The notes below the pieces were generated by a model. The model was not told the DNA's origin and ran no database searches. It was given only the letters and a program-made list of their open reading frames with translations. From contig CAKTOH010000003.1 in assembly GCA_934589705.1 (NCBI GenBank), positions 101,608 to 165,607 of the forward strand: DNA of 64,000 nucleotides, written 5' to 3'. Source of the stretch: an uncultured Oscillospiraceae bacterium. Lineage in GTDB: Bacteria > Bacillota > Clostridia > Oscillospirales > Oscillospiraceae. The position numbers and the translations under genes are program-made. Of the stretch, positions 1 through 39,679 are shown one piece after another (the stretch's first letter is position 1; every line of letters begins with the position of its first letter).

Positions 1-1235
1 GGAATGGTAATCTGGAAGTTCTTGCCGTTAAAATCCCCGGAGAAGGGGTGCTCCTTGCCGCCGATGCCGTCCCAGGCGTCCGTAATTTCAATGTTCTGGG
101 TCAGCTGGAAGTAAAGGCCCGCCTGGTCTTCACCCGCCGTGACCCACTCGTCCAGCAGGAACAGGTCTTCCTGGCTGGTCAGGAGATAGGGGTTGCTCCG
201 GGAGCCGTCGCCTTCCAGGCCGGAGACCCGGACTTCGATCTGGGCGGTGGCGTCCGCGTATTGAACGGTGACGGCGGTGTCCGCCGCGGTGAGTTCTTCG
301 GCAGGGGAGAAGGTCAGCTCCTCGGCCTTGGGCACCAGGGTGGTGCCGTCGGACAGGGTGACTTTGACCTCCAGGCCCGTGGGGTCGAAGGCTTCGCCGG
401 ACTGGTACTCGGTTTTTTCCGGCAGCTGGGTGATTTCCAGAGCCTGGGCCGTGGGAGTCAGAACCAGGGACAGGGTGTATTCGTCCTCATCGTAGAGACT
501 CTTGCCCAGCAGTGTCAGCTTCAGCTGATAAAGATTCCGGGAATCCCACTGGGGGGTGAAGGTGTATTGGTTATCTTCCAGAACGGTGCCGTTTACATAA
601 ACCTGATAATCCACGGCGGGCTCCAGGGTCAGAGTCAGCTCACCGTCCGCCGGAATCTGCACTCCGTAGGTATGACAGTTGGGGGTGAATTCCGGGGTCA
701 GGGCCAGGACATTTCCCTGGGCGTCGGACAGAGACATGGCCTCCAGAGCGCTGTCCTCTTCCATGAGCCCCAGGAACTCCTGGATCATCTCCCACAGGGT
801 CTTCTTGGGGGGCTCTTCTTCGGCAGGCTGGGTTTCTTCGGTGGCCTCCGTGACCTCGGTAGCCTGGGTGGGGGCTTCGGTTGCGGGATGCGTCTCCGGC
901 TCGGTTACGGGAACCGTCTCAACGGGGGAGGTGCTGACGGTTGCGGAGGTAGTTTCCGGGGGCATCGTTTCCTCCGTGGGAGAGGTGATATCGGCGGCTT
1001 CCGTGGAAGCGGTTTCCTCGGTGGCGGGGGTGGTTTCCGCCAGGGTGTGCTCCGTGGCCTCCGTGGCCTCCGTGGTAGGCTGGGTGGTCTCTTCCGCAAT
1101 CGTCACAGGAACCGTGGCCTGGGCGGCAGACTCCGGCAAAACGCCGACGGCGGTCTCAGCCGCATTGACCGAAACCGTAAGTACGGGCCCTAACAGCGTC
1201 AAAGCCGCCAGAAAACTTGCTAACCATCTTCTCAT
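1..1235 (-). CDS. Large secreted adhesin-like surface protein (N-terminal part; runs off the window)
   Basis: About 411 codons are inside the window and the C-terminus lies beyond base 1. The start at 1235 gives a clear Sec signal peptide (MRRWLASFLAALTLL..., predicted cleavage near residue 26), with a GGAG Shine-Dalgarno about 9 nt upstream. Next comes a low-complexity Thr/Glu/Pro/Ala spacer (about residues 35-125), typical of a wall-spanning stalk. It is followed by a cadherin-like beta-sandwich segment, an Ig-like segment of Big_3 type (TEYQSGEAFDPTGLEVKVTL) and the start of a beta-helix-like region (PFSGDFNGKNFQI). The same order (stalk, FSG-x-x-NGK motif) occurs in the neighbouring giant protein, so the two look like relatives. 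Transcription starts behind a cobalamin riboswitch, so B12 status probably controls it. No enzymatic motif is visible; an adhesin or ligand-binding role is inference. Confidence 0.85.
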   Translation of the reverse strand, partial: MRRWLASFLAALTLLGPVLTVSVNAAETAVGVLPESAAQATVPVTIAEETTQPTTEATEATEHTLAETTPATEETASTEAADITSPTEETMPPETTSATVSTSPVETVPVTEPETHPATEAPTQATEVTEATEETQPAEEEPPKKTLWEMIQEFLGLMEEDSALEAMSLSDAQGNVLALTPEFTPNCHTYGVQIPADGELTLTLEPAVDYQVYVNGTVLEDNQYTFTPQWDSRNLYQLKLTLLGKSLYDEDEYTLSLVLTPTAQALEITQLPEKTEYQSGEAFDPTGLEVKVTLSDGTTLVPKAEELTFSPAEELTAADTAVTVQYADATAQIEVRVSGLEGDGSRSNPYLLTSQEDLFLLDEWVTAGEDQAGLYFQLTQNIEITDAWDGIGGKEHPFSGDFNGKNFQITI

Positions 1236-1255
1236 TGGGCAAACTCCATTCTTAG

Positions 1256-1331
1256 GGAAGCTCTGATTCAATCGGCAAGAGCTGGCAGCGAGAGATTTTG
1301 TTCTCACGCAGACGATTTATTCAGAGTTTCC
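1256..1331. mobile_element. MITE-like element, family A, short copy (76 bp)
   Basis: The ends are imperfect inverted repeats: GGAAGCTCTGATTCAATCG on the left and the complement of CGATTTATTCAGAGTTTCC on the right. TTAG flanks both sides as a target-site duplication. A longer copy with the same ends and the same TTAG flanks lies at 14371-14531. The 4-bp YTAR-type target and GGAA..CTCTGA ends resemble IS5-group elements; that assignment is inference. There is no coding capacity. It sits in the 5' UTR between the riboswitch terminator and the ribosome binding site of the surface-protein gene. Confidence 0.75.
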
Positions 1332-1342
1332 TTAGGTCAAAG

Positions 1343-1370
1343 AAAAACGCACTGGCTCAACACCAATGCG
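1343..1370 (-). terminator. Intrinsic terminator acting as riboswitch expression platform
   Basis: Read on the minus strand, CGCATTGG pairs with CCAGTGCG (one wobble) and is followed at once by TTTTTC. It lies about 65 nt downstream of the cobalamin aptamer and ahead of the surface-protein start, which suggests transcriptional OFF control when B12 is bound. Confidence 0.7.
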
Positions 1371-1435
1371 ACCGTCTGTTTTCGCTCCCAGGCTGCCATC
1401 CGCCGCACGGCATACAGTGCAGCTTCCGGATTCGA

Positions 1436-1622
1436 TCATGGCCGGTCTTCTGGCTCGCGCGTGGTAACGTCTGTGCCCTGCCTTCCCAGTTTCCCAGTGA
1501 CCGGATCGCTCCGAAGGGGCACAGGCTCCGCGCCTACAGCATCGGGATATGCTCCGGAATCTGACCGGATTTTCTGATCACCGCACCTGCCCGGGGTGGG
1601 AGCAGCGTGGGTGACGCCATGC
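1436..1622 (-). promoter_or_regulatory. Cobalamin (B12) riboswitch upstream of the surface-protein gene
   Basis: On the minus strand the conserved core CACTGGGAAACTGGGAAGGC (about 1480-1500) is followed by the typical 3' segment GCGAGCCAGAAGACC. Upstream is a GATGCTGTAGGCG-type segment and an AATCCGGTCAGATTCCGGA helix. A possible P1 stem pairs CATGGCG (1615-1621) with GGCCATG (1437-1443). This matches the family layout: cobalamin box, kissing-loop region, then a downstream terminator. Confidence 0.9.
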
Positions 1623-1660
1623 AGCGTATTTGATTTGCGGGAGTATCTGTAAGTACCAGT

Positions 1661-1689
1661 ATTTTAACCTTTTTTTATCGATTTGTCAA
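1661..1689 (-). promoter_or_regulatory. Sigma-A type promoter for riboswitch and surface-protein gene
   Basis: On the minus strand TTGACA (1689-1684) is followed by a 17-bp spacer and TAAAAT (1666-1661), placed just upstream of the B12 aptamer. Confidence 0.8.
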
Positions 1690-1769
1690 CGGATATTCGG
1701 GGAAAAGGTGAGAATCTCAGGGAGGATTTCCCGGGAAAATGTGACATTATGAACGAGTCCCCTTAGATG

Positions 1770-2085
1770 TATGTCATTGCGAACCAGTGGTGCTCCGCGC
1801 AGCGAATCTAAAATAACAATGACTGCCAGTGGCAGTCATACCTTAATTTAGCGCAGCACTGGTGTGGCAATCCGTATTCTCTTGGCTCCCACTCTGGGGG
1901 AGCTGTCAGCGAAGCTGACTGAGAGGGAGAAGGGCTCCCTTCCCAAGAGAGGAGCGCAAGGCCCTCATCCGTCACGGCTTTGCCGTGCCACCTTCCCCGG
2001 AGGGGAAGGCTTTGGGGAACGGATTGCCACACCATCCTGCGGGATGGTTCGCAATGACATGCGTTATACGACAGCATGCTTTGAC
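1770..2085. repeat. Composite intergenic repeat, copy 1
   Basis: This block contains the outer pair GTCATTGCGAACCAGT (about 1773) and GGATTGCCACACC...GGTTCGCAATGACATGCG (ending about 2062). Inside are internal hairpins (ATGACTGCCAGTGGCAGTCAT) and the module reading GGCCCTCATCCGTCACGGC...CCTTCCCCGGAGGGGAAGG. Related copies occur at about 12640, 17125, 21400, 25697, 39455 and 42733. No gene is visible in it; short open frames across it are repeat sequence. Confidence 0.8.
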
Positions 2086-2092
2086 AAAGAAG

Positions 2093-2130
2093 AACCCAGC
2101 CGGCTCCCCGGAGGGAGTCGGCTGGGTGGT
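2093..2130 (-). terminator. Intrinsic terminator of the giant surface-protein gene
   Basis: On the minus strand ACCCAGCCGACTCCC pairs with GGGGAGCCGGCTGGGT and is followed by TCTTCTTT, about 20 nt after the stop codon at 2153. Confidence 0.85.
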
Positions 2131-2152
2131 CAGGAATTTGCGCCTGAAGCGA

Positions 2153-5100
2153 TTACAGCTTCGGGGGAGTCTCGTCGGTCTCGACGATCTTCAAGGTGAC
2201 GAAAGCGGACTTGTTCGTGCCGTCGGCGGCAGTGCAGGTGATTTTTACCTTGCCGGCCTTGATGGCGGTGACAACACCGTTTGCGTCCACGGCAGCGATC
2301 TTCTCATTGCTGCTCTTCCAGGTATAGGTGCCTGCGGTGCCCGCAGGCTCGCTGGAAGCGGTCAGCTCCAGTGTAGTGTCCACAGAGATGGAAGCGGGCA
2401 GCTCGCCGTCCTTGGCGGAGATGGTGACCTTGGTGGTAGCGGGGTAGACGGTAACCTTGCAGGTCGCCTTCACGTCGCTGCCGTCCTGAGCGGCGGCCGT
2501 CACGGTGACGGTCACGGGCTCGGTCACGGCCTTGGTGGTGAGCTTACCGGAAGCATTGATCTTGATGCCGTACTCGTTCTCGGACACGGACCAGGTCAGC
2601 TTCTTGTTGGTGACGTCGGTGGGGCCAATGACGGGCTTCAGGGTAACGGACTTGCCGCCTGCCACGCTGGTGTCCGCCAGTTCCAGAGACTTCATCAGCT
2701 TGATGACCTGAATCTTGAAGGAGGCCTTCTTGCCGGAGCCATCGTTTGCGGTGGCGGTGATGGTCACGGAGCCTGCCTTCAGGAAGGTGATCTTGCCGGT
2801 TTCGTCAATGGCAGCGACCTTCGTGCTGGAGGACTTCCAGGTCACAGACTGCTCGGCGGTCAGGGGGTAAACCTTGGCACTCAGCTGCATGGTGTCGTTG
2901 CCATCAGCAGCCATATCCCAGACCAGGGTGGTGTTCTCGGAAGAGTTGGGACGCTTGATCTCCACGCCGTAGGACAGGGGGTTAACGGTGATGTCCTGCT
3001 CGGCGGTGACGCCGGAGCCGTCCTTGGCGGCAGCCTGAACGGTGACGGTGACAGGCACAGTCAGGTTCTTATTGGCGGTAACCACACCGGAAGCGGAGAT
3101 CTTGGCGTATTCGCTGCCTTCGGTGATTGTCCAGGTGACAGCCTTGCTGGCGGCCTCAGCGGGAGCCACGGTGGCGGTCAGGTTCAGCTTCTTGCCGGAG
3201 GCCACATTGAAGGAACCGGTCTTGCTGGTGATGGTCAGGCTCTCAACCAGCGTAGTGACGCTGACGGTGACAGTTGCCTGCACCTTGCCGTCCACCAGAG
3301 CGGAGATGGTAGCCTTGCCCTTGGCCAGGCACTTGACAACACCGTTCTCGACAGTGGCGACCTTCTCGCTGGAGGACTTCCAGGTCACGTTCTCGGCGGG
3401 AATCTCATCGGTGCCATCCAGCGTGTAGGCTTCCAGAGTGACGGTGTTGCCCACATTGCGAACCAGGGTGGTCTTGGTCACATAGTCCTCGCCGGCCTTC
3501 AGGATCAGGCTCTGATCATTCTTGGGCAGGATGGTCAGAGTGATGGGCGCGCTTTCAACCTTGGCAGCGTCCTTGCTGACGGCCACGACCTGGACGGCGT
3601 GAGGCTCGTTGACGGTCTTGGCAGTGACCTTGCCGCTGGCGGCTACGGTGGCGTAAACGCTGTCGGCGCTGTTCACCAGCCGGAAGGTGACACCGGAGAC
3701 GGTGGGCTTCTCAGGCTCGGTGGTGGCCTTCAGGGTCAGGGACTTGCCGGAGCGCAGAGTGGTTGTCTCAGGCTCGGTAATGGTGACGCTCTGGGTCAGC
3801 AGACCGACCTGAACCTTCACGGAAGCGGACTTCTTGCTGCCGTCGTTTGCGGTGGCGGTGACGGTGACAGTGCCGGTGCCGGCCACGTACTTGGCGGTGC
3901 CGTCCTCAACGGTGAGCACCTTGGTGTTGGAGGACTTCCAGGTGATGCCTTCCTTGGCATCGGTGGGATAAAGCTTCGCGGTGAGGTCAAGCTCGGCACC
4001 CTCCACGCCGTTCAGGTACAGAGTCTTGCCGGTGACGACATTGCCGCCCTCCAGGATATCGACCTGACCCACGGCGGGGTAGATGGTGATGGTGTGCTTG
4101 ACGTAGCCGGAGTAACCGTTGCGCAGAGTGCCGATGAAGGTCACATTGTGCTTGGAAGCGACAACGTAGGTCTTCACGACGCCGGCGGCGGTGACGGTGG
4201 CGTAAGCCGCGTCATCGGGGTTCTCCAGAGCCCAGGTGATGGAGGAGGCGGGGATGGTCTTGCCGGTTTCCACGTCCACGGCGGAGAGCTTAGTGGACTT
4301 GCCGCCGATCAGCTCGGAATCCACGGTTTCGGGAACGGAGCCGCCGGAGGTGTTGCACATGGTGTAGGCATCCGCGCCCAGGATGTCGTCGGTGCGGTTC
4401 AGGTTCCGCTGCCACCAGCTGTAGCCGGAAACAGTGGGGAACTTGCCGGAGCTGGAATCGAAGTAGACCTGGCCGATCACAGTCTCGTGCTCGGCAGCAC
4501 TGGTATCCACATAACCGACCCGACCGATGGGAGGCAGGGACTTGGTGTAGGAGGTGTTGCCGTAGATGCGGTCGTAGGCGTTCAGGCCTCTGTAGTAGCC
4601 AACGATGGAGCCGACGATGGGATCTTCCGTATTGGTAGCGGAGACCTTGCCGCGGAACACGTTGTTGGCCAGGGTGTTGGGGGTACGGGCGTAGGTCTGG
4701 ATGACGACGGAATCGCCGCCCTGGATACCGCCGACCTTGTTCTCACCGGTGATGGTGCCGGTGACGGTACAACCCGTGATGTTGGGCCGCATGGCGTTAT
4801 CCGCCCAGCCGCCGATGTAGCCGCTGCCGATGATACCGCCGGCCTCTTGTCCGCTGGCCACCACGGTGCCGTGGAACTCACAGCCGGTGACCTTGAAGGT
4901 GGTCATGGAGTTGTCCTCGTTGCCCACGATACCGCCGACGCTGTCTACGCCGTAAACGGTAGCGTAGCTGACGCAGTTCTCAATGGTACCGATGAACCGA
5001 CCGGCGAAGGAACCGATCTTGGACTGGGTGCCGTCGTAGCCGATGACAACGCCTTCCTCCGCCACACAGTTGCGGATGGTGACGAGGTAGCTGCCGGAGC

Positions 5101-8100
5101 ATCCGGCAAAGCCGTTGGCCTTGGTCAGGTAAGTGCCAATCAGGCCGGACTTCAGGGTCTGGGTGCCGGACTTCAGGGTCACATGGTCAATGGTGACAGC
5201 GTTGCCGCTCAGGCCCACGCCCTCGTAGTTGTTGACCAGGCCGTAGCCCTCAATCCGGGTGCCGTAGATGTTCAGGTCGCTGACATAAGCGTCCTTGACG
5301 TAGCCGAACAGAGGCAGTCCGCCCTCGGGCACGGTCAGGGTGTTGCCCTTGCCGTTCAGATGGCCGCTGAAGGCGCGCATGTTCTTGCCACCGTTGATGT
5401 GTCCGACGCTGGGATCGATCAGCACACCGATGGGCTCCCAGCCCTCGGGCAGGGTCACGTCTTCGGTCTGGGCCAGGTACTCGCCGGAGAAGGAGTAGCC
5501 GTCCTTGACCATCTGGGCAACGAAAGCGTAATCCTCGCCGGAGGTGATCTCATAAGGATCATTTTCGGTGCCGGTACCGGTCAGGTTCTCATGGATGATG
5601 TCCTTATCGGTCTTGACGGTGATGGCAGCCACGTCGGAGTTGACGCTGTACTGGCTGACCACGGCGTTGGTGACGGTGCAGAAGTAGTATTTGGTGCCGC
5701 CGTTCACGGCCTTGCCCAGCTCGTAGGTTGCCTCGGTAGCACCCTCGATGGCGGTGGCACCCTCAATGGGCTGGCCCTCCACGGGAGCTGCGTCGGTAAC
5801 GTACCACTGGTAGCTGAGCTTCTTGTAGGTGCCTTCGACCTCAGCTTCCACACGCAGCGCGGTCATGTCATCGCCCACCCGGTAGGTGGCGGACACGGGC
5901 TGGGTGGTGATCACGGGCAGATCGGCCTCGGTGCTCTCACGGCTGGTGAGTCTCAGCAGGCAGATGGTGGGCTCCATGTCGCCGGACTGGACAATGACAC
6001 GGACCGGGGTGTTGTCCTCGGTGATGTCAATGGCCTTGGTGGCGGCATCGGAGGCGATACGCTGATCGTTGACGTAGATGTTCTCCGCGCCGCCGGCGAC
6101 AGAGATGGACACGGACTTCATGGGCAGGGTCAGCTCATAGGTCTGCTGGCCGGCCACGGGAGTCAGGGTGTAGTTGGTGGTGCCGTCGGAGAAGGTGATG
6201 GCGGTGGGAGCGGAGGTCTTGCCAACAGGCGCGCCGGTGGAGGTGGCCCGATAGACCTTGGCAACCTCGGTGGACTTCTCGTTGAAGGCACCGGCCATGA
6301 CGTTGGCGGCGGCGACGACCTTCACATAGTGGAAGGACATGCCATTGACGTTCACGGGGATGCCGCTTGCGTCAACGGCCCAGGCCAGATCGAAGCCGGA
6401 GCTCTTCAGCGCCAGATCATCGTTGGCCAGGTAGGGGTTCTCTTCACCGTTGGGCGTTGCGTCAACGTAGCCGAAGGAAGTGCCGGTGATCCAGCTGGCG
6501 GTGGTGTTGTCACCGATCATGCCCTTGATACTGGGGATCAGGACGCCGGTCACAGTGTAGGTGCCGCTGGCAGCGACATCGTTCATGGAATAGTAGGAAG
6601 GCTGAGGCCAGTTGAAGGTTTTGCCATGGTCAGCGTCGGTGTGACCATAGTTATCCTTCCAAGAGGTACCGGTGCCGTTCTTGGTGTAGGTGATGGTGTA
6701 GTCCCAGATGGCGTTGGTGTAGTGCTGAGAGCCAGCCAGGGCGTACCAGGTGTTGCCGTCCTCGGAAACCCAGACCTGGCCAGGCTCGGGGAAGCTTCCG
6801 CCGGCGTTGGAGTTGCCGGTGATGTAGAAGTCAACGCCGTACTGGTTGGAGGGGTCGTTCTGCAGGCCGTTCTCGAAGTAGAAGGTGGCGTAGCCGCCAA
6901 AGCTGCCCAGGGTCTTGAGGGTGCCGGACAGCATGCCCTCAGGATTGACACCAAAGCCGCCCCAGCCTGCGCCGTTGATGTACTGGGTATTGATGGCCAG
7001 GTAGTCAACCAGCTTGTCCGCACCGTTCTTGATCCGCTTGGAGGCGGCAAAGTCGTAAACCCGGGTCAGGCTGCCCAGGGTCACGTTCAGCTTCTGAGAA
7101 GCGGTGGTGAGCTTCAGGGTGTAATTGCCTTCCTCATCGGCGGTCAGAGCCTTGGAGCCCAGCTTGACGGTGCAGCCCTCGGCGACGGTGAAGGTCACGG
7201 TGGGAAGCTCGTCCTCCTGAGCGATGCTCAGACGGTAGGAAACGGAATTGTCGTTGAACGCAGGATACCAGTCGCCGCCGTCAGAGGTGGCGGTGAGGAT
7301 CCTGGGCTCGCCGGTGGCAGGCAGCTGCTCAACCCAGAAGGTGTAAGTCGTGCCGACCTGAGTGCCATTGAGCATCAGCTTTTCATTGCTGGCGGTCATC
7401 TCGGGGAAGGCGCTGCCCGCGTCGGTGTAAGCCTGGTCAGTAACGACCTGGACAGTGAGCTTGACTTCCGCGTTGGCGCCCTCGGCGGCCTCGGGGAAGG
7501 CAATGGCCTCGGTGGTGCCGCCGCCCTGAGGCAGTTCCTTCCAGGTAGCGCCGCCATCGACAGAGTAGCGGATGTGGGTGTAAACGGTGTTGCCCTTCAC
7601 AGTGGCCGTAAAGTCGGCGCGGCCGTTCTGCATGAAGGCGCGGTAGTAGTAGCTGGAGTTCGTCCAGCCGTAGGTGCTGTTCTTCACACCGGCATTGCTG
7701 GCGCGGAACAGATAACCCTCGGCCTGAGACAGGTACTGGGTGGAGGACAGAGCCTCACCGTTGCCGCCTGCCAGAGCCATACCGGCGGAGTAAGCCAGGT
7801 TCTTGGTGGTGTCTCTGGGACGGGTGACTTCCAGGGTGTACTCGGACTTAACGTCCTTGTTCTCCTTGTCGGTCAGGGTCAGCTTGACGACCGTGGTGCC
7901 GAAGGGGAACCCGGGCAGCTGGGTCAGAGTAGCGGAAGGAATCGCGATGCTGACAGCCTCGCCATCGGCGTTGGTGTAGGTGGCGACGCAGTCCAGCTTC
8001 TTGCTGTCGTACAGGCTGTCCTTGCTGACAGTCAGGATGGTGGTGCTGTAGGAGCTCAGCTTGATGCCGGTGTAATCCTTCTGACCGGCGTTGTACTTGA

Positions 8101-11100
8101 AGGTAGAGGAGGAGATACCGGTCAGGGCCAGCTTCTCGAAGGTGGGGTTCTGAGCGTCGGTGACGACAACCAGAATACCGCCCTTGGTGCCCTTGTCATC
8201 GGCGACGGTGATCTGGGAGGTGCCTACGGCATGGGCGGTGACAACACCGTTTTCGTCCACGGTGGCCACGGCCTCATTGGCGCTCTTCCAGGAGGCCACG
8301 GTGCGGCCTTCCTCGGTGAGGGCCTTCAGCTGCATGGTGGGGGCGGCGTTCTCGGAGGTCAGCTCCAGATAAGCCTTGCCCAGTTCGCCGTTGGCATTCT
8401 CAACGGCCACACCGGTGACGGTGACGGTAGCCTTGTCGGTCAGAGGCGCGTCTGCGGGGCCCACGTCCAGGGTCATGGTGACTTCCACCTTGCCGGGACG
8501 CAGAACATCCATTCGAATGTTGTTGGGCTTCGTGCTCAGGTCAGAGGTGACCTTGGCCACGCCGTCGGGAATCTTCACATCCCAGACAGTGTGTCCGGCG
8601 GCACCGCCGTACAGGGAGGCGGTCTTCACAGACTGACCATCCACGGACAGCTTCACAGTGGGCGCGTTGTCGCTGAACTTAAAGAAGGCAACGTCAAGGG
8701 CCTTGTTGTTGGGGGTGGACACGCTGGGATCCAGGGTGGAGGTAGCGGTCAGGTAGCTGTAGCTGGTGGAATTGACGGTGTAGGTGCCGGTTTCGGCATC
8801 GAACCTACCGCCGTAGCACTGGGCTGCCCAGGTGACGGGTGTCTTCTCGCCGTTCTCGTCCACAGCCCATACATGGAACTGGGTGCCCTGGTTCGCGATG
8901 AGGGTCACGCCGCCGATTGCCATGGAGGAGGTGCTGGGAATGGTGTAGGCGTAATCGGTGACGATGGACAGGCTCTTGGGCACCGCCTTGACGGTGACTT
9001 CCACGATCTTGCTGGTGGCGGATTCCAGACCGGTGCTGGAAGCCACGGCGTAATAGTAGAAGGTGCCCAGGGTATCGCTGGGGACGGTCAGGGTGGCTTC
9101 GGTAGCACCGGCCACGGCCTTGCCGCCCTCGGTGGAGGCGGTGGTGTTCACATACCACTGATAGCCGATGGCGGGGGAGTCGGTCACATCCTTGGTGTAG
9201 TCGGCTTCCACGGTCAGGGTATGGTTGGCGGTGTTCTGACCGATGGTCAGAGCGTCTTCGGTCAGGTCAGTCTTCCACAGCAGAGCCTTGCCCTTCTCCA
9301 TGGAGACGGTGATGGTGTAGGTCTTGTCAAAGCCGCCATCAGCCTTGGAGGTCAGAGTCAGGACGCTGGCCTCCGCACCGGGAACCAGCTTGTCAAGACG
9401 CACCCACTTGCGGTTCTGCTCCGCGGTGAGAGTCTTGGTGACGCCGTGGAAATTGAAGCCCGCGGTGCAGTAGTCGATGTACTCCACCTTGACCCACAGA
9501 CGCCGGGCTGCTGCTTCTTCCACGAAGTCCAGAGGCTCCACGGTGTAGTCCATGGTATCGTGGACAAATGTGGGATTCAGGGTCAGCTCCCGGATGGTAT
9601 TCTCGGAGCTGCCGATGCCCAGGTGAACCTCAACCAGATCGGTCTCCTTCACGACGTTGCCGACCTTGAACACGTTCAGGGCGGTCATCGCCTCATCCAC
9701 GCCGGTGATGACGAAGCAGGAGGTCTTGTTGGCTACGTTCTCGCTGATATGAAGGGAGATCTTGCCGTCCTTGTCGGAAATCTTTCCGGTGATGGCTTCC
9801 ACCTTGCCGGTCTTCATATCCATGGTGGCCAGCTGCGCACCCTCAACGACCTCGACGGGGTCGCCGTAGGCGGCGTAGTTGCTCTTGACGACCAGGTCAA
9901 GATCGGTGTTCGCGTAGAAGGTCTGGCCGGTCAGGGGCTTTCCGTCGGCGGTTTCCAGCCAGACGTACTTGTCCAGATAATAGGCGGCATCCTCATACAC
10001 GCCAAAGGTGACATAGTCGCCGTCTGCTACCTTGGTCTGGTTGACGAACAGACCCTTGCCATCCTCGCCGGCGGCCTGCTTGCCATTGACCAGGATGGCC
10101 AGATTGGTGGATTCCTCGCCCATGCGCTTGGTGATCCAGTTGGCATCACTGATGGCCAGGAAGTCCGTAGCGTTCTCGGGGGTGAACTGATCGAAGAAGG
10201 TCAGCTCATGGGCCCGGACCAGCACGTCCAGAGCGGACACGCCGTCCTCAACCAGGTCCCTGTAGCCGTAGCTCTCGGCCAGGTTGCTGGCAATCTTCTC
10301 GTCGAAGGCGAAGACCTCCTGATTGCCCGCTTCCTGATAGCTGAAGGTCACGGTGGCGTAGGTCACAACGGAACCGGTGACGGTGACCACACAGTAGGGA
10401 GCGGTCAGAGGTGCGTTCACGGTAATGGTTTCATTGCCGTTGCCGCCGCCCCAGTTGGCAATCTCGGTCTGAACCTCGCCGGAGGCGGAGATGATGTAGG
10501 TACCGGCCTTGTTCAGCGTCAGGCTCACGTTGCCGTTTTTGTCGGTAACGGCACCGTCAATGGCGGTGAACTTGCCGTCTTTCCAGATGCCCACCTGGGC
10601 ACCGGCCAGATTGCCGGGGTTATAGCCGTCCACGGCCATGGAGGAGCCGCCCTGAAGATTCAGGGTGAAGGCCTTTCCGGCCTGGGCGGTGACGGCGGTC
10701 TGGGTGAAGTAGCTGACCGCGTCAGAATAGTTTTTCTCATCGGTAAAGACGCAGCAGTACAGCTTGTCGCCCTGAGCCACAACGTTGGACTCGTCGGCTA
10801 CACCCTTATGCGGATCCACGTTGTTCTTCAGGAAGTAGTAGCTGCCCTTGGGGCTGGTCTGGACATTCCAGAGGTTGTGAACCATGGTGCCGCTCAGCTC
10901 ATAGCCGCCGGGACAGTAGGCCTCATGCAGAGCGATCAGAGCCTCGTGGTAGGTCAGAACGCCGTCCTTGTTCACGTCCTTGACGGTGACGGGCAGTCCA
11001 ATGGCGGCCTTGCCGTCGGAGGTGGTGGCCAGAACGCCCTTGACACTTACGGTGAAGAACACCTGGGCTTCCTTCGTGGGCTGCACGGAGCTGCCCTTGA

Positions 11101-12091
11101 CGGTGACGATGCAGTAAGGCGCGGAGACGGGGCAGTCAACATCATAGGTGTCGAAGCCGTCGTCCGCCTCGCCGGGCAGGGTGCCGCTGGCAGTGACGAT
11201 GTAGGTACCGGCCTCAGAGAAGCTCAGGGTCACGGTGCCGTTAGTAGCGGTCTTGGCACCGGTGATGGCCTTGAAGCTGCCCTTTTCCCAGGTGCCTACG
11301 GAAATGCCGTAAGCATTCAGCGCACTGTAATTGCTGCCGCTGAAGTATTCGCCGGCGGCCTTCAGGGTCAGGGTGAATTCCTTGCCCTCATCGACGGTGA
11401 CCTCGGTCTTGTCGAAGTAGCTCAGGCAGTCGGAATAATCCTCCGTGTCCTTGATGGAAGCGGCATACAGCTTGTCGCCCTCGGCCACAGTGCTGGTTTT
11501 CCAGTTGACGGCCTTCTCCAGAATCTTGTTGTTCTTGGCGACAATGGGAGCGGTGACTTCACTGCCCCAGAGCTTTCTCACGGAGTTGCCGTTCAGGGCG
11601 TAGCCGTCCGGGCAATACGCCTTGTGGAGGGCAACCAGCGCCTCGTCAAAGGTCAGGATGCCGTCGGAGTTGACATCCGTTACGGTAACGGGCAGCTCAA
11701 CAGCTGCTTTGCCGTCGGAGGTCTTCGCCAGCACGCCTTTTTCACTGACGGTGAAGGAAACCTTCACAGGGTCGGCGGGGGTGTTCTCCTCCATTACGTC
11801 CAGAGCTTCCTCGGTTTCCTCGGTGGGAGCCTGGGTCTCGGGAGCCTCCGTAGCGGGAGCCTCGGTTTCCGGGGCCTGCGTAGGGGCCTCCGTTTCGGGG
11901 GCCTCCGTCTCGGGAGCCTCCGTTACCGGCGGCTGTGTCTGGGGTGCTTCCGTCTCAAGGACAGGAGCCTCCGCCTCCTCCACAGGCGCCGATATGGTTT
12001 CCTGCGCCGCTTCGTCCGCAAAGACGCTGGTGGGGATCATACCGACCAGCATCACGAGGGTCAGCAGCAGTGCCAATATCCGTCGTTTCAT
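2153..12091 (-). CDS. Giant secreted multidomain surface protein (3312 aa), B12-riboswitch controlled
   Basis: The start at 12091 is chosen because GGAAGGGAAG precedes it and it begins a Sec signal peptide (MKRRILALLLTLVMLVGM...). An upstream in-frame extension to 12160 lacks both. Segments: a Pro/Thr/Glu stalk at about residues 30-100; two related modules at about 105-335 and 340-575, each with an EF-hand-like loop (DVNSDGILTFDEAL, DVNKDGVLTYHEAL) and an AEGDKLY-type strand; and a third, divergent module at about 577-800 with DGVSALDVLVRAHE. These resemble DUF4430, the transcobalamin-like C-terminal fold. The middle holds Ig/cadherin-like sandwiches and a GLUG/beta-helix-like region (about 2180-2575). 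Residues 2600-3312 are about seven Big_2-type repeats, four of them with a WKSS core (e.g. TWKSSNTKV). No LPXTG or other sortase signal, SLH domain or C-terminal membrane segment is seen, so retention at the cell is unexplained. Corrinoid capture is inference from the riboswitch plus the fold resemblance. Confidence 0.9.
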   Translation of the reverse strand: MKRRILALLLTLVMLVGMIPTSVFADEAAQETISAPVEEAEAPVLETEAPQTQPPVTEAPETEAPETEAPTQAPETEAPATEAPETQAPTEETEEALDVMEENTPADPVKVSFTVSEKGVLAKTSDGKAAVELPVTVTDVNSDGILTFDEALVALHKAYCPDGYALNGNSVRKLWGSEVTAPIVAKNNKILEKAVNWKTSTVAEGDKLYAASIKDTEDYSDCLSYFDKTEVTVDEGKEFTLTLKAAGEYFSGSNYSALNAYGISVGTWEKGSFKAITGAKTATNGTVTLSFSEAGTYIVTASGTLPGEADDGFDTYDVDCPVSAPYCIVTVKGSSVQPTKEAQVFFTVSVKGVLATTSDGKAAIGLPVTVKDVNKDGVLTYHEALIALHEAYCPGGYELSGTMVHNLWNVQTSPKGSYYFLKNNVDPHKGVADESNVVAQGDKLYCCVFTDEKNYSDAVSYFTQTAVTAQAGKAFTLNLQGGSSMAVDGYNPGNLAGAQVGIWKDGKFTAIDGAVTDKNGNVSLTLNKAGTYIISASGEVQTEIANWGGGNGNETITVNAPLTAPYCVVTVTGSVVTYATVTFSYQEAGNQEVFAFDEKIASNLAESYGYRDLVEDGVSALDVLVRAHELTFFDQFTPENATDFLAISDANWITKRMGEESTNLAILVNGKQAAGEDGKGLFVNQTKVADGDYVTFGVYEDAAYYLDKYVWLETADGKPLTGQTFYANTDLDLVVKSNYAAYGDPVEVVEGAQLATMDMKTGKVEAITGKISDKDGKISLHISENVANKTSCFVITGVDEAMTALNVFKVGNVVKETDLVEVHLGIGSSENTIRELTLNPTFVHDTMDYTVEPLDFVEEAAARRLWVKVEYIDYCTAGFNFHGVTKTLTAEQNRKWVRLDKLVPGAEASVLTLTSKADGGFDKTYTITVSMEKGKALLWKTDLTEDALTIGQNTANHTLTVEADYTKDVTDSPAIGYQWYVNTTASTEGGKAVAGATEATLTVPSDTLGTFYYYAVASSTGLESATSKIVEVTVKAVPKSLSIVTDYAYTIPSTSSMAIGGVTLIANQGTQFHVWAVDENGEKTPVTWAAQCYGGRFDAETGTYTVNSTSYSYLTATSTLDPSVSTPNNKALDVAFFKFSDNAPTVKLSVDGQSVKTASLYGGAAGHTVWDVKIPDGVAKVTSDLSTKPNNIRMDVLRPGKVEVTMTLDVGPADAPLTDKATVTVTGVAVENANGELGKAYLELTSENAAPTMQLKALTEEGRTVASWKSANEAVATVDENGVVTAHAVGTSQITVADDKGTKGGILVVVTDAQNPTFEKLALTGISSSTFKYNAGQKDYTGIKLSSYSTTILTVSKDSLYDSKKLDCVATYTNADGEAVSIAIPSATLTQLPGFPFGTTVVKLTLTDKENKDVKSEYTLEVTRPRDTTKNLAYSAGMALAGGNGEALSSTQYLSQAEGYLFRASNAGVKNSTYGWTNSSYYYRAFMQNGRADFTATVKGNTVYTHIRYSVDGGATWKELPQGGGTTEAIAFPEAAEGANAEVKLTVQVVTDQAYTDAGSAFPEMTASNEKLMLNGTQVGTTYTFWVEQLPATGEPRILTATSDGGDWYPAFNDNSVSYRLSIAQEDELPTVTFTVAEGCTVKLGSKALTADEEGNYTLKLTTASQKLNVTLGSLTRVYDFAASKRIKNGADKLVDYLAINTQYINGAGWGGFGVNPEGMLSGTLKTLGSFGGYATFYFENGLQNDPSNQYGVDFYITGNSNAGGSFPEPGQVWVSEDGNTWYALAGSQHYTNAIWDYTITYTKNGTGTSWKDNYGHTDADHGKTFNWPQPSYYSMNDVAASGTYTVTGVLIPSIKGMIGDNTTASWITGTSFGYVDATPNGEENPYLANDDLALKSSGFDLAWAVDASGIPVNVNGMSFHYVKVVAAANVMAGAFNEKSTEVAKVYRATSTGAPVGKTSAPTAITFSDGTTNYTLTPVAGQQTYELTLPMKSVSISVAGGAENIYVNDQRIASDAATKAIDITEDNTPVRVIVQSGDMEPTICLLRLTSRESTEADLPVITTQPVSATYRVGDDMTALRVEAEVEGTYKKLSYQWYVTDAAPVEGQPIEGATAIEGATEATYELGKAVNGGTKYYFCTVTNAVVSQYSVNSDVAAITVKTDKDIIHENLTGTGTENDPYEITSGEDYAFVAQMVKDGYSFSGEYLAQTEDVTLPEGWEPIGVLIDPSVGHINGGKNMRAFSGHLNGKGNTLTVPEGGLPLFGYVKDAYVSDLNIYGTRIEGYGLVNNYEGVGLSGNAVTIDHVTLKSGTQTLKSGLIGTYLTKANGFAGCSGSYLVTIRNCVAEEGVVIGYDGTQSKIGSFAGRFIGTIENCVSYATVYGVDSVGGIVGNEDNSMTTFKVTGCEFHGTVVASGQEAGGIIGSGYIGGWADNAMRPNITGCTVTGTITGENKVGGIQGGDSVVIQTYARTPNTLANNVFRGKVSATNTEDPIVGSIVGYYRGLNAYDRIYGNTSYTKSLPPIGRVGYVDTSAAEHETVIGQVYFDSSSGKFPTVSGYSWWQRNLNRTDDILGADAYTMCNTSGGSVPETVDSELIGGKSTKLSAVDVETGKTIPASSITWALENPDDAAYATVTAAGVVKTYVVASKHNVTFIGTLRNGYSGYVKHTITIYPAVGQVDILEGGNVVTGKTLYLNGVEGAELDLTAKLYPTDAKEGITWKSSNTKVLTVEDGTAKYVAGTGTVTVTATANDGSKKSASVKVQVGLLTQSVTITEPETTTLRSGKSLTLKATTEPEKPTVSGVTFRLVNSADSVYATVAASGKVTAKTVNEPHAVQVVAVSKDAAKVESAPITLTILPKNDQSLILKAGEDYVTKTTLVRNVGNTVTLEAYTLDGTDEIPAENVTWKSSSEKVATVENGVVKCLAKGKATISALVDGKVQATVTVSVTTLVESLTITSKTGSFNVASGKKLNLTATVAPAEAASKAVTWTITEGSEYAKISASGVVTANKNLTVPVTVTVQAAAKDGSGVTAEQDITVNPLSYGVEIKRPNSSENTTLVWDMAADGNDTMQLSAKVYPLTAEQSVTWKSSSTKVAAIDETGKITFLKAGSVTITATANDGSGKKASFKIQVIKLMKSLELADTSVAGGKSVTLKPVIGPTDVTNKKLTWSVSENEYGIKINASGKLTTKAVTEPVTVTVTAAAQDGSDVKATCKVTVYPATTKVTISAKDGELPASISVDTTLELTASSEPAGTAGTYTWKSSNEKIAAVDANGVVTAIKAGKVKITCTAADGTNKSAFVTLKIVETDETPPKL

Positions 12092-12184
12092 AGAATACTT
12101 CCCTTCCGCCGGACACCCCAAGAGAAATGCCCGGCTGATATATGTCACGGCTTTCGCCATTGACTACGAACTGCGCAGAGACGC

Positions 12185-12223
12185 AAAAACGGCGATACTC
12201 TCCCATAACGAGAATATCGCCGC
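12185..12223 (-). terminator. Intrinsic terminator acting as riboswitch expression platform
   Basis: On the minus strand CGGCGATATTCTC...GAGTATCGCCG forms a stem of at least 8 bp followed by TTTTTGCG. It lies between the B12 aptamer and the giant-protein start, consistent with premature termination when the ligand is bound. Confidence 0.8.
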
Positions 12224-12245
12224 AACCATTTCCAGCAACTCTCTG

Positions 12246-12446
12246 ACGAAACAGTAGGTCTCCCGACTCGCGCCTCCGGCAAACGCAGCCCTGCCTTCTC
12301 AGGTTTCCCCAATGACCGGCTTTCGCCGACGGGCTGAATTCTAAGCGCACACGGTATTGGTCAATGCGGGGCTTGTCCCCATTTCCTTGTTAAGCCCCTG
12401 CGCCTGACGGGATAACCGCCTTTGCGAACGCAGTGCCTCTGCTCGT
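12246..12446 (-). promoter_or_regulatory. Cobalamin (B12) riboswitch upstream of the giant surface-protein gene
   Basis: On the minus strand the order is AACAAGGAAATGGGGACAAG, then CATTGGGGAAACCTGAGAAG with GC following, then GCGCGAGTCGGGAGACC, which is the canonical cobalamin-box layout. A P1 stem can form between ACGAGCAGAGG (12446-12436) and CCTACTGTTTCGT (12258-12246). An extra strong hairpin (TTGCCGCC/GGCGGCAA, about 12463-12484) precedes the aptamer. Confidence 0.88.
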
Positions 12447-12507
12447 ATTTGGTCAGGCCTTGCCGCCCAATCGGCGGCAAGACCCAAATCTACCCATAGA
12501 TATAGAT

Positions 12508-12536
12508 AGTATAATACCGATTAACGGATTTGTCAA
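12508..12536 (-). promoter_or_regulatory. Sigma-A type promoter for the giant surface-protein gene
   Basis: On the minus strand TTGACA (12536-12531), a 17-bp spacer and TATACT (12513-12508), upstream of the riboswitch. Confidence 0.85.
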
Positions 12537-12639
12537 TGCCGGGGTTCCCGTCCATTGGACTTTTTGCGGATAATTACCAGAAGAGGGAAAATGCTGCCCC
12601 GATAAGGACAGCACTCGATGAAAAGAAGCAGGTGAGAAA

Positions 12640-12940
12640 TAGAATGTCATTGCGAACCAGTCTGCGGACTGGTGTGGCCCCCTCCGTGGATTCCCTCCGG
12701 TCACAATCCGTACTCCCAAAGCCTTCCCTTGGGGGAAGGTGGCTCGCGCGTCCCCCGCAAGCGCGAGACGGATGAGGGCCTTGCCTCTCCCTGTGGGAGA
12801 GGTGCCGGAGGCGGAGAGGGCTTTGTTTTACCCTCTCAGTCGGCTTCGCCGCCAGCTCCCCAAAAGGGGGAGCCAAGGGGGACGGATTGCCACGCCAGTC
12901 TGCGGACTGGCTCGCAATGACATGCGTTATACGATGGTTC
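12640..12940. repeat. Composite intergenic repeat, copy 2
   Basis: Starts with ATGTCATTGCGAACCAGTCT and ends with GACTGGCTCGCAATGACATG. Between them are the CTTCCCTTGGGGGAAGGTGG and GGATGAGGGCCTTGCC modules. It fills the gap after the ATP-grasp gene. A weak hairpin with a T-run on the minus strand (about 12588-12618) could be that operon's terminator. No gene is seen in 12541-12959. Confidence 0.8.
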
Positions 12941-14547: not shown

Positions 14548-16485
14548 TTAGTACATCTTCGCACCGGCGGGAATGTGGCCATCCAGCATCAGCAGGTGGA
14601 GCCGTTCCTCGCCTTCCTCATGGTGGACGGCGGAAATCAGCATACCGCAGGAGTCGATGCCCATCATCTTTCTGGGGGGCAGGTTGGTGATGGCAACGCA
14701 GGTCTTGCCCACCAGCGCTTCCGGCTCATAATACTCGTGAATGCCGCTCAAAATCGTCCGATTTGTGCCCGTTCCATCGTCTAGGGTGAACTTTAAGAGC
14801 TTCTTGGACTTTTTGACAGCCTCGCATTCCAGAACCTTCACAGCCCGGAAATCGGACTTGGAGAAGGTGTCAAAGTCCACGTAGTCTGCAAACAGCGGCT
14901 CAATTTCCACGTTGGAAAAGTCAATTTTTTCCTCAACCTTGGCAGGAGCGGAAACTGTCTCATTTTCGGGCTTTTCAGCGGGCTTTTCCGTCTTGGGCAG
15001 GTCCGTGGGCTTCATGGTGGGGAAGAGCAGCACGTCCCGGATGGAGGCGGAGTCCGTCAGCAGCATGACCAGCCGGTCAACGCCGAAGCCCAGACCGCCC
15101 GTGGGGGGCAGGCCGTATTCCAGGGCGGTGACGTAATCGTAATCCACCTGAGCCCGGCTTGCGGGATCCACTGCCAGCCGATCGGCCACCTGCTTTTCAA
15201 ACCGGGCCTTCTGATCGATGGGGTCGTTCAGCTCGGAGAAGGCGTTGCCGAACTCCGTGGCGTTAATGAAATATTCAAACCGCTCGGTGAAGGCAGGATC
15301 ACCCGGCTTGCGCTTGGCCAGGGGGCTGTTCTCCACGGGATAGTCATAAATAAAGGTAGGCTGAATCAGATTCTCTTCCACAAAGGCGTCGAAGAACTCG
15401 GCAAGGATTGCTCCCTTAGTGGGGATTTCCGGCAGCTCCACCTTGTGCGCCTTTGCGGCGGCGATGGCTTCCTCGTCAGAAGAAATGGCAGCGAAGTCCA
15501 CGCCGGAGTACTTCTTGACGGCCTCGATCATGGTCATCCGCTCCCAGTGGCTCAGGTCGATGTCCTTGCCCTGGTAGGTGATCTGCAGGGTGCCGCAGAC
15601 CTTCATGGCTACGGTCTTCATCATTTCCTCCACCAGATCCATCATGCCGTGGAAATCGGTGTAGGCCTGGTACAGCTCAATGGAGGTAAACTCCGGGTTG
15701 TGGGTGGGATCCATGCCCTCATTGCGGAAAATCCGGCCAACCTCGTAGACCCGATCCATACCGCCCACAATCAGCCGCTTCAGGTACAGCTCGGTCTCAA
15801 TGCGCAGCACCATGTCGATGTCCAGGGTGTTGTGATGGGTATAGAAAGGACGGGCGGAGGCACCGATTTCAAAGGGAGTCAGAATGGGGGTATCCACTTC
15901 CAGGAAGCCCTTGCCGTCCAGGAAATGCCGCAGCTCCCGGAGAATCAGACTCCGCTTGACGAAGGTGTCCTTCACCTCGGGATTCACGATCAGGTCAACA
16001 TAACGCTGACGGTACCGGGTTTCCCGGTCGGTCAGACCGTGGAACTTTTCAGGCAGAGGCAGAAGGGACTTGCTCAGCAGCGTGGCCTCGTGGACACGGA
16101 CGGAGATTTCGCCCCGCTCGGTTTTGAACACGTCGCCCACCACACCGACGATGTCGCCGATGTCGTTCTTCTTGAACCGCTGGAAGGAGGCCTCCTCCAT
16201 TTCGTCGAACTTCACATACAGCTGAATCCGGCCGGTGCTGTCCTGCAAATCGCAGAAGGACACCTTGCCCATGCCCCGCTTGCTCATGATACGGCCGGCC
16301 AGACGGACGGACTTGCCCGCCATGGCATCGTAATTTTCTTTGATGGCGGCGGAGTCGGCGGTCACCTCAAACTTGGTCTGGACGAAGGGGTCGAAGCCGT
16401 CGGCACGCAGAGTATCCAGCTTTTCCCGACGCACCCGAACCTGATCGGACAGGGGCATTTCCGCCTGGGGTACAAACTTTGCCAT
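14548..16485 (-). CDS. lysS: Lysyl-tRNA synthetase (class II) fused to a C-terminal tRNA-binding domain
   Basis: 645 residues; charges tRNA-Lys. An N-terminal OB-fold anticodon-binding domain (about 55-165; RLAGRIMSKRGMGKVSF) precedes the class II catalytic core: motif 2 FRNEGMDPTHNPEFTSIELY and motif 3 GLPPTGGLGFGVDRLVMLL. Ordinary bacterial LysRS ends near residue 500. Here a charged Lys/Glu/Pro linker (about 500-530) leads into a domain of about 110 residues of the Trbp111/EMAP-II type (FRAVKVLECEAVKKSKKLLK, GIHEYYEPEALVGKTCVAI, MGIDSCGMLIS), like the MetRS tail. It starts 3 nt after the greA stop on the same strand, so the two form one operon. Confidence 0.95.
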   Translation of the reverse strand: MAKFVPQAEMPLSDQVRVRREKLDTLRADGFDPFVQTKFEVTADSAAIKENYDAMAGKSVRLAGRIMSKRGMGKVSFCDLQDSTGRIQLYVKFDEMEEASFQRFKKNDIGDIVGVVGDVFKTERGEISVRVHEATLLSKSLLPLPEKFHGLTDRETRYRQRYVDLIVNPEVKDTFVKRSLILRELRHFLDGKGFLEVDTPILTPFEIGASARPFYTHHNTLDIDMVLRIETELYLKRLIVGGMDRVYEVGRIFRNEGMDPTHNPEFTSIELYQAYTDFHGMMDLVEEMMKTVAMKVCGTLQITYQGKDIDLSHWERMTMIEAVKKYSGVDFAAISSDEEAIAAAKAHKVELPEIPTKGAILAEFFDAFVEENLIQPTFIYDYPVENSPLAKRKPGDPAFTERFEYFINATEFGNAFSELNDPIDQKARFEKQVADRLAVDPASRAQVDYDYVTALEYGLPPTGGLGFGVDRLVMLLTDSASIRDVLLFPTMKPTDLPKTEKPAEKPENETVSAPAKVEEKIDFSNVEIEPLFADYVDFDTFSKSDFRAVKVLECEAVKKSKKLLKFTLDDGTGTNRTILSGIHEYYEPEALVGKTCVAITNLPPRKMMGIDSCGMLISAVHHEEGEERLHLLMLDGHIPAGAKMY

Positions 16486-17124: not shown

Positions 17125-17245
17125 AGACGGTCATTGCGAACCAGTCCGCAGACTGGTGTGGCAATCCGTTCTCAGCTTTATAGGAGCGACCTCATCCGGC
17201 TCTTCGAGCCACCTTCCCCTCCCAGGGGAAGGCTTGGGCACTGCC
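17125..17245. repeat. Composite intergenic repeat, copy 3
   Basis: GTCATTGCGAACCAGTCCGC...GGTGTGGCAATCCG followed by CCTCATCCGGCTCTTCGAGC, then CACCTTCCCCTCCCAGGGGA. It lies between the greA promoter and the SdpI-like gene end. Confidence 0.75.
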
Positions 17246-18604: not shown

Positions 18605-18674
18605 AAATGTTAAATGAATGATAGCATGGGAAGGAAAGATTGTCAAGAGAATATTTCATAAAAATGTTAAATGA
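18605..18674. promoter_or_regulatory. Direct-repeat candidate operator between sdpR-like and larE genes
   Basis: AAATGTTAAATGA occurs twice in the same orientation, at 18605-18617 and 18662-18674. The two copies bracket the sdpR-like promoter, and the second sits just upstream of the larE promoter. A related TTTAACAATTAAC lies at about 18590. Binding by the SdpR-like repressor is inference. Confidence 0.45.
18618..18646 (-). promoter_or_regulatory. Promoter of sdpR-sdpI-like operon
   Basis: On the minus strand TTGACA (18646-18641), a 17-bp spacer, TATCAT (18623-18618). Confidence 0.8.
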
Positions 18675-18681
18675 GAAAAGA

Positions 18682-18710
18682 TTGCGCATCGTTTTTAACT
18701 GTGCTATAAT
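18682..18710 (+). promoter_or_regulatory. Promoter of the lar operon
   Basis: TTGCGC (18682-18687), a 17-bp spacer and TATAAT (18705-18710), about 30 nt before the larE start. Confidence 0.7.
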
Positions 18711-18738
18711 GGCGAAAATCCCGGAAGGAGGGAAAATC

Positions 18739-19485
18739 ATGACTTTGAACGAATTCTGGAAGGAGAATCCCAAGGCCGCCATTGCCTTTTCCGGCGGGGT
18801 GGATTCCTCTTATTTATTGTATACGGCTGTGAAGGCCGGGGCGAAGGTGACGGCCTACTATGCGGACAGCGCCTTTCAGCCGGCCTTTGAGGGGGAGGAC
18901 GCTTTGCGCCTTGCCAAGGATGTGGGGGCGGAGCTGAAAATCCTGCCGCTGTCCGTGCTGGAGGTGCCCAAGGTAGCGGAAAATCCGGCAAACCGCTGCT
19001 ATTACTGCAAACGGGCGATTTTCTCCGCCCTGATTGCCGCCGCCGCTGCCGACGGCTACGACCTGATTCTGGACGGCACCAACGCCTCCGATCCGATTTC
19101 CGACCGGCCGGGGATGGAGGCTCTGCGGGAGCTGTCCGTCCGGTCGCCTCTGCGGGAGTGCGGCCTGACCAAAAGCGAAATCCGGGAATTGTCCCGGCAG
19201 GCGGGGCTTTTCACCTGGGATAAGCCCGCCTATGCCTGCCTGGCTACCCGTGTGCCCGCGGGAGAAACTATCACCGCCGAAAAGCTGGAAAAAACGGAAA
19301 AGGCCGAGGACTATCTTCGCTCCCTGGGTCTGCGGGATTTCCGGGTGCGGCTTCTGAAGGGCTGCGCCAGGATTCAGGTGCCGGAAGGGCAGCTGGAGCT
19401 GGTGCTCCGGAACCGGGAGACCATTCTGGAGCAGCTGAAGCAGTGGTATACCGGCGTGGTGCTGGATTTGGAGGTGCGGCCGTGA
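18739..19485 (+). CDS. larE: LarE, ATP-dependent sacrificial sulfur transferase
   Basis: 248 residues. LarE adenylates the pyridinium dicarboxylate intermediate made by LarB and donates sulfur from its own cysteine during synthesis of the nickel-pincer nucleotide (NPN) cofactor. The PP-loop motif FSGGVDSSYLL is at about residues 15-25, with a cysteine cluster NRCYYCKRAIF and ACLATRVPAGE further on. ATG 18739 follows GGAAGGAGGG; an earlier in-frame ATG has no ribosome binding site and overlaps the promoter. It overlaps larB in a GTGA arrangement, so larE-larB-larC is one transcript. Confidence 0.93.
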   Translation: MTLNEFWKENPKAAIAFSGGVDSSYLLYTAVKAGAKVTAYYADSAFQPAFEGEDALRLAKDVGAELKILPLSVLEVPKVAENPANRCYYCKRAIFSALIAAAAADGYDLILDGTNASDPISDRPGMEALRELSVRSPLRECGLTKSEIRELSRQAGLFTWDKPAYACLATRVPAGETITAEKLEKTEKAEDYLRSLGLRDFRVRLLKGCARIQVPEGQLELVLRNRETILEQLKQWYTGVVLDLEVRP

Positions 19486-39632: not shown

Positions 39633-39679
39633 GTTGCCAAAAAGCACCCCATCGGTAGGATGGGGTGCTTTTTGGCAAC
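39633..39679 (-). terminator. Intrinsic terminator of rnpB (bidirectional)
   Basis: GTTGCCAAAAAGCACCCC and its complement form an 18-bp stem around a 11-nt loop; A and T runs within the stem make it functional on either strand. It directly abuts the 3' end of rnpB. Confidence 0.85.

Follow-up and report, generated by a model that had tools for sequence, protein, structure and literature searches.

Capture of vitamin B12 at the cell surface has been worked out for Bacteroides, and for collection by Gram-positive cells ahead of a membrane importer we found one discussion passage in the open-licence literature. In the parts of PMC8941943 that deal with it, BtuH2 of Bacteroides thetaiotaomicron binds B12 very tightly (picomolar, with the authors cautious about instrument limits), gives a fitness benefit and contacts its ligand chiefly at the corrin ring and nucleotide loop, eight contact residues being named. 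Three Firmicutes species are also mentioned there as having btuH homologues, in one case near an energy-coupling factor (ECF)-like transporter. Here we analyze a stretch of 64,000 nucleotides (the window) from an uncultured Oscillospiraceae bacterium (assembly GCA_934589705.1, contig CAKTOH010000003.1, positions 101,608 to 165,607 of the forward strand), which is GC-rich and carries an S10-Clostridia leader (61609-61682) and a class A RNase P RNA (39672-40013) as its Clostridia signatures. Two minus-strand genes, gene A (2153..12091) and gene B (1..1235, cut by the window edge), are each preceded by a cobalamin riboswitch. We consider it probable that a Gram-positive gut bacterium here secretes the very long gene A product to capture corrinoids, and that this protein would be under the control of its B12 riboswitch and would feed an importer.

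Comparison with solved structures locates a BtuH-type domain at approximately residues 1690-1975 of the gene A protein (6236..7093, minus strand, as are all gene A and gene B features below; residues are counted from an upstream ATG at 12160, sequence P0001, and 23 is to be subtracted for the start at ATG 12091). With a single sequence as query, BtuG1 of B. thetaiotaomicron (8BLW) is not matched. It is reached by a profile made from 8 close sequences (E 6e-15), and a profile of 28 diverse sequences (alignment A2) matches BtuG1 with an E of 8e-29 over profile positions 16-275 of 279 and BtuH2 (7BIZ) with an E of 1e-24 over positions 16-273 of 279, nearly the whole domain; both structures are identified in the relevant part of PMC10404256. 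By profile comparison the domain is shown to share ancestry with BtuH2 and BtuG1, and we infer from this kinship that it binds corrinoids. An AlphaFold model of the domain from 8 sequences had a predicted local distance difference test (pLDDT) of only 34.3 and was discarded.

Closer to the N terminus we located three repeats, R1 (residues 128-262, 11375..11779), R2 (residues 364-492, 10685..11071) and R3 (residues 599-726, 9983..10366). The AlphaFold model of R1 (pLDDT 86.8, predicted template modelling score 0.81) has haptocorrin, transcobalamin and intrinsic factor as its best structural matches, at 10-16% sequence identity, and on comparison the predicted fold is like that of the transcobalamin β-domain. 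R2 is a sister of R1 (phmmer, 3.3e-39). Profile-profile comparison links R2 to R3 (96%) and R3, a divergent DUF4430-like repeat, to the main DUF4430 set of the relatives (94.9%; 12% with a small N-terminal set). We read gene A as a capture protein because its BtuH-type domain is akin to solved B12-binding proteins and because R1 has a predicted fold like the transcobalamin β-domain.

The first-pass annotation, made from the window alone, had seen B12 aptamers in both leaders. Riboswitch 1, in the leader of gene B (1424..1636), matches RF00174 in a whole-window scan with 60.2 bits (E 2e-12), above the Rfam cut-off of 31.5. Riboswitch 2, in the leader of gene A (12236..12442), is not reported by the whole-window Rfam scan at cut-offs; its RF00174 match (12236-12435) has 27.9 bits, below the cut-off, and an E of 6e-5 in the 1.1 kb searched. 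We built a covariance model without the window, from 16 riboswitches found in relatives; its E-values are rough, as it was derived from a MAFFT alignment and has an RNAalifold structure with no more than 28 pairs. Across the whole 64 kb this model finds riboswitch 1 with 96.3 bits (E 1.8e-23) and riboswitch 2 with 79.8 bits (E 3.3e-19), and no third place at E up to 1. We call the gene A leader a diverged cobalamin riboswitch because of this score of 79.8 bits, not from the look of its motifs. The aptamer claim has therefore withstood the covariance check, with RF00174 for riboswitch 1 and with the relatives' model for both.

Each leader runs from TTGACA-17-TAnAnT through the aptamer to a T-tailed hairpin before the start codon, and an order of promoter, aptamer, terminator and gene is the layout of a transcription-terminating riboswitch. 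The promoter-like site of gene B is TTGACA-17-TAAAAT (1661..1689) and its intrinsic terminator-like hairpin lies at 1348..1370; for gene A they are TTGACA-17-TATACT (12508..12536) and a hairpin of 14 pairs followed by a T run (12189..12223). Scans of the gene B leader return 1 promoter-like site (0.4 expected) and 5 terminator-like hairpins (1.2 expected), and those of the gene A leader return 2 (0.4 expected) and 1 (1.0 expected). By these counts, the promoters and terminators of both genes are supported by their position more than by their rarity. The paired units described at first reading, each with promoter, aptamer, terminator, signal peptide and Thr/Pro/Glu stalk, were all recovered where they had been placed.

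MITE-like (miniature inverted-repeat transposable element) intergenic elements with the ends TGTCATTGCGAACCAG occur as two copies of ∼280-290 bp with inverted ends (1771-2060 and 12644-12923), which sit upstream of the gene B and gene A promoters, respectively. Further ends are found at 17129, 21557, 26016, 39540 and 42734-42859, and the end sequence has 10 matches in the window with up to 2 mismatches (0.14 expected).

Linkage of the gene to cobalamin riboswitches is conserved in relatives. A genome-contig scan with the A1 profile gave 32 loci titled as Clostridia and other Bacillota groups, and we take all taxon names in these titles to be Bacillota. The best relative is 53% identical (one weak match has 55% over 65 residues). 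At Rfam cut-offs, 22 of the 32 loci carry a same-strand upstream riboswitch (20 cobalamin and 2 adenosylcobalamin (AdoCbl)); six more, L002, L009, L011, L013, L014 and L015, come from permissive Rfam searches and from the relatives' model, the weakest being L009 (E 1.9e-4) and L014 (E 3.9e-5), to give 28 of 32. The permissive Rfam search of L002, L009, L011, L013 and L015 had matches in L011 and L013 only, and a search with RF01482 (AdoCbl) in 9 genomes confirmed the L030 switch and returned a sub-threshold match at the L009 gene. Three of the four misses (L004, L005 and L024) lack the 5' end of the gene where the contig ends; the fourth, L016, gave no match on its short contig. At L027, L029, L030, L031 and L032 at least one open frame lies between the riboswitch and the BtuH-coding segment. 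The predicted co-occurrence of riboswitch and gene is thus borne out for A-type genes; its other half, an A-like gene beside a B-like gene, was found at none of the loci compared.

Profile searches located the BtuH-type domain in 7 of 394 and 11 of 400 genomes, and it is uncommon in both groups. No near relative of the source turned up: the lysine-tRNA ligase of the window has its best match among 291 genomes at 71% identity over its length (72% over part), and in the family of that match (4 genomes) no BtuH-like gene was found. In the order of G003 (28 genomes) the gene occurs in G003 alone, and in the family of G028 there are distant ones only (the 11 of 400). Homologues are common in metagenomes, where the scored candidates include 326 proteins for the N-terminal part and 396 for the BtuH part at E up to 0.001.

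Eleven new genomes have a readable upstream region, a set that excludes the known G001, G004, G002, G015 and G864 (= L024) and the contig-cut G751. RF00174 matches upstream of the gene in 7 of them (in G988 below cut-off), and the relatives' model adds G724 (E 3e-9) and, weakly, G362 (E 0.0013). Over whole genomes the G724 and G362 places are absent among the matches listed for this model, though the local search finds both. Among the 9 positives other than G376, G878 and G988, two open frames separate riboswitch and BtuH-type domain in G724. Eleven genomes have a single RF00174 match listed genome-wide (5 of 15 at E up to 0.001 and 6 of 13 at E up to 0.01), and in all of these 11 except G358 and G399 the sole match precedes the BtuH-like gene. 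In genomes of ∼2 to 3.4 Mb, it is very unlikely that chance would put the match so close to one gene, at a distance of a few kb, in nine cases.

Some relatives showed features of their own. G012 (L025) and G878 have 26 and 20 RF00174 matches, a large B12 regulon that may contain more capture genes. L015 (303-887) and L017 (3339-3923) share a similar gene of 194 amino acids between riboswitch and BtuH-like gene. In Syntrophaceticus schinkii Sp3 (L029, 2959-9114) the BtuH-like gene, with its riboswitch upstream, is interrupted by 6 stops in one frame, which may point to gene decay or to an error in sequencing. In L002 (113-3900), spurious frames with repeated PPRGGVDRN-like strings suggest an array of clustered regularly interspaced short palindromic repeats (CRISPR) some kb ahead of the BtuH-like gene.

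The neighbours of the gene in relatives point to corrinoid import. An EcfT-like gene and a DUF4430 protein adjoin the BtuH-like gene in at least 13 of the 32 loci, with an ECF ATPase in 12 of the 13 (in L020 the EcfT-like gene is only partly visible); 13 is a floor because several contigs stop soon after the gene. The pair recurs in 6 of 8 further loci. In L008 and L010 the order is BtuH-like giant, toroid protein (∼530-550 amino acids), DUF4430 protein, EcfT-like protein and a fused EcfA-EcfA-S protein, which contains ABC_tran twice and matches ECF S-component families; in L027 the ECF cluster lies upstream of the BtuH-like gene. The L008 toroid protein matches PF00432 with 26.4 bits (cut-off 26.5) and SLH clearly above cut-off, and the L008 DUF4430 protein has an N-terminal hydrophobic segment and a DUF4430 match at E 2.9e-17. 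A CobA/CobO/BtuR adenosyltransferase is encoded in L017 (E 1.6e-44) and L015 (93% identical). The riboswitch locus of relatives is thus composed of an A-type gene, an SLH-bearing α/α-toroid protein, a DUF4430 protein and an ECF transporter, joined in some cases by a corrinoid adenosyltransferase. Among 26 full proteins scanned, that of the window included, 21 have DUF4430, 13 SLH and 18 Cadherin-like domains, and in 5 of 25 relatives (L006, L007, L009, L018 and L021) a BtuH-type domain, DUF4430 and an α/α-toroid are joined in one chain. A Protein Data Bank search with one DUF4430 partner did not match transcobalamin. The toroid profile matched squalene-hopene cyclases (E 6.5e-7) and not transcobalamin, and we take the partner toroid to be linked to transcobalamin by fold class only.

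The EcfT-like protein has only a weak match to CbiQ (E 0.00084, under the cut-off), which raises the question of whether the captured ligand could be a corrinoid precursor, another cobamide or cobalt instead of cobalamin itself. This would fit a clostridial site that differs at 6 of the 8 BtuH2 contacts, given that those contacts are chiefly to the corrin ring and nucleotide loop. We regard it as unlikely: the adenosyltransferase beside the transporter in L015 and L017 and the cobalamin riboswitches argue for corrinoids, not free cobalt.

Gene A most probably begins at ATG 12091, giving a predicted protein of 3312 amino acids, because the Shine-Dalgarno-like GGAAGGGAAG precedes it and MKRRILALLLTLVMLVGMIPTSVFA follows; the start at 12160 first assigned to the gene gives way to it. 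The protein begins with a signal peptide and a Thr/Pro/Glu stalk (11786..12091, by eye), followed by R1, R2, R3, β-rich regions (by eye), the BtuH-type domain, a Gly-rich repeat region (4481..5608, boundaries by eye), which is similar in gene B and in L001, and a C-terminal array of Big_2 immunoglobulin (Ig)-like domains (2183..4303, boundaries by eye; PF02368 in 8 stretches, E 1.3e-48). Weak Pfam matches in both proteins, among them HL_N-beta, DAAD and Shr-like_HID, fell below cut-off and were set aside.

Gene B starts at ATG 1235 and is visible for 411 amino acids up to the window edge, with a signal peptide and a stalk of Thr/Pro/Glu (both by eye), a Big_3 domain (PF07523, E 4e-8) and the first part of the repeat region that it shares with the gene A family. 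Of the two giant proteins announced by the first-pass annotation, gene A is one, and gene B is seen for this length only. The repeat region of gene B matches gene A homologues (∼31% over 73-85 residues) and L001 (33% over 128). The FSG-x-x-NGK strings noted earlier are real (FSGHLNGKGN in gene A and FSGDFNGKNF in gene B) and lie in this region common to the two families. Protein searches returned 3 gene B homologues (P0220-P0222), short or broken off, and in P0222 the repeat region carries on. From its sequence and leader, gene B is best described as a putative B12-regulated companion, which the first-pass annotation saw as a possible partner or alternate of gene A.

Several observations weigh against corrinoid capture, the first of them in the binding site. 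The BtuH2 contacts Q333 and N399 align with residues invariant in the 28 sequences; F401, H476, Y510, W511, W577 and L578 have no conserved equivalent, with gaps near Y510, W511 and H476. Because of these 6 of 8 contacts, the ligand site of the clostridial domain may differ or be lost. Domain scans find no B12-related domain in the visible part of gene B, and the B12-repressed surface capture of corrinoids proposed for both proteins is partly supported, its capture side for gene A only. If the ligand of the BtuH-type domain was lost or changed, genes A and B could be adhesins tuned by B12 as a niche signal; much of gene A consists of adhesin-like repeats (Big_2/Big_3 and Gly-rich), and visible gene B shows adhesin-like domains only. 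The invariant columns of the full-length alignment fall, however, in the BtuH-type domain and the stretch right after it, and linkage to riboswitch, DUF4430 and ECF genes would be hard to account for in a pure adhesin, which makes adhesins highly improbable. For the repeats, R1 has a Z of 11.6, only 1.5 above the ubiquitin-like protein 4hro (10.1), and direct profile-profile comparison of R1 and R2 with DUF4430 gives 16% and 30%. The Pfam DUF4430 model has no gene A match at E up to 1, and a DUF4430 model built from relatives reaches an E of 0.5 only; we name R1-R3 DUF4430-like and not members because the Pfam model is unmatched. Among the new genomes, G358 has an upstream match at E 0.1 only and no partners found, and G399 has the operon with no detectable upstream riboswitch.

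The remaining adverse points concern location and transport. Gene A has no C-terminal LPXTG motif (one internal LPATG string is present) and no SLH match, in contrast to the SLH domains in 13 of the 26 proteins scanned. The ECF, toroid and DUF4430 seeds find no match in the window, where other B12 transporters were not sought and beyond which the DNA following gene B lies. A secreted protein with a very long Ig-like tail and no recognized wall anchor might be released as a B12 sponge, which would serve to deny corrinoids to competitors or to hold them in solution in the gut, and not to feed its own cell. We find this quite improbable, as ECF-type genes adjoin the gene in relatives, half of the proteins scanned carry SLH domains and repression by a riboswitch suits uptake.

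We therefore return to a capture protein that feeds its own cell and propose the following mechanism. Genes A and B would each be transcribed from their own promoter through a cobalamin riboswitch. At high intracellular B12 the aptamer would bind the vitamin and the terminator hairpin would halt transcription, and when B12 is scarce both genes would be expressed. The BtuH-type domain, and perhaps R1-R3 too, would bind B12 or related corrinoids outside the membrane, with the Ig-like array of gene A as a possible spacer. By analogy with relatives, corrinoids would likely pass from the wall protein to a membrane-bound DUF4430 protein and on to an ECF importer and the cytoplasm; the ECF part of the source genome would lie outside the window.

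Elsewhere in the window, the lysine-tRNA ligase (14548-16485, minus strand, 645 amino acids) has a C-terminal extension, while many of the Clostridia matches listed end near residue 496; the extension resembles a tRNA-binding oligonucleotide/oligosaccharide-binding (OB) domain. Three adjacent plus-strand genes (18640-21397), with matches to PF01969 nickel insertion (E 6.6e-141) and AIRC (E 5.9e-15), are presumably larE, larB and larC for synthesis of the nickel-pincer cofactor.

How does this locus compare with known systems? The gene A system is a giant version of a kind already in print, since PMC8941943 mentions BtuH homologues in Firmicutes; likened by description, those homologues are probably the same kind of system, although the passage gives no architecture and the main text does not use the words DUF4430 or transcobalamin. 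With BtuH2 (BT_1956) and the H-domain of BtuG1 (BT_1490), as described in parts of PMC8941943 and PMC10404256, gene A shares a homologous domain, secretion, a chain that also carries Ig-like domains, control by a cobalamin riboswitch and, in its relatives, a neighbourhood like that of cobamide transport. In contrast, Bacteroides BtuH2 is described there as a predicted lipoprotein of ∼64 kDa that works with the TonB-dependent BtuBG, whereas gene A encodes a predicted 3312-amino acid signal-peptide protein of a Gram-positive cell, whose relatives come with ECF genes and whose domain leaves most of the BtuH2 contacts unconserved. DUF4465/BtuJ, as presented in the relevant part of PMC13398666, is another riboswitch-linked class of extracellular B12 binders with some Bacillota members, but it is a different domain, and genes A and B do not match it at E up to 1. 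We found no account of a BtuH-DUF4430-ECF riboswitch arrangement in titles and abstract starts of the open-licence papers listed by our searches.

The locus and its relatives provide a testable parts list, a BtuH-type wall protein, toroid, DUF4430 and ECF proteins and an adenosyltransferase, behind one RNA switch. It is quite possible, if short of probable, that gut Clostridia run an extracellular B12 relay in which the BtuH module of Bacteroides is combined with counterparts of both halves of the animal B12 carriers, transcobalamin-β-like and α/α-toroid domains, on wall and membrane proteins encoded in one cobalamin riboswitch operon with an ECF importer, and that the window holds a giant, multi-site form with a multiplied β-like domain (R1-R3). 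The locus and its relatives also hint at a bacterial equivalent of intrinsic factor and transcobalamin, which bears on competition for B12 in the gut. Unlike these carriers, gene A has no toroid, the divergence of its repeats puts them beyond the reach of the DUF4430 model, and identity is low. Like them, it has a repeat, R1, whose predicted fold is closest to the β-domain of transcobalamin, haptocorrin and intrinsic factor (DUF4430; PMC4350170), most of the proteins scanned contain DUF4430, and some relatives join it with BtuH-type and toroid domains in one chain; if the relay is real, bacterial and vertebrate B12 carriers would share an origin or a design.

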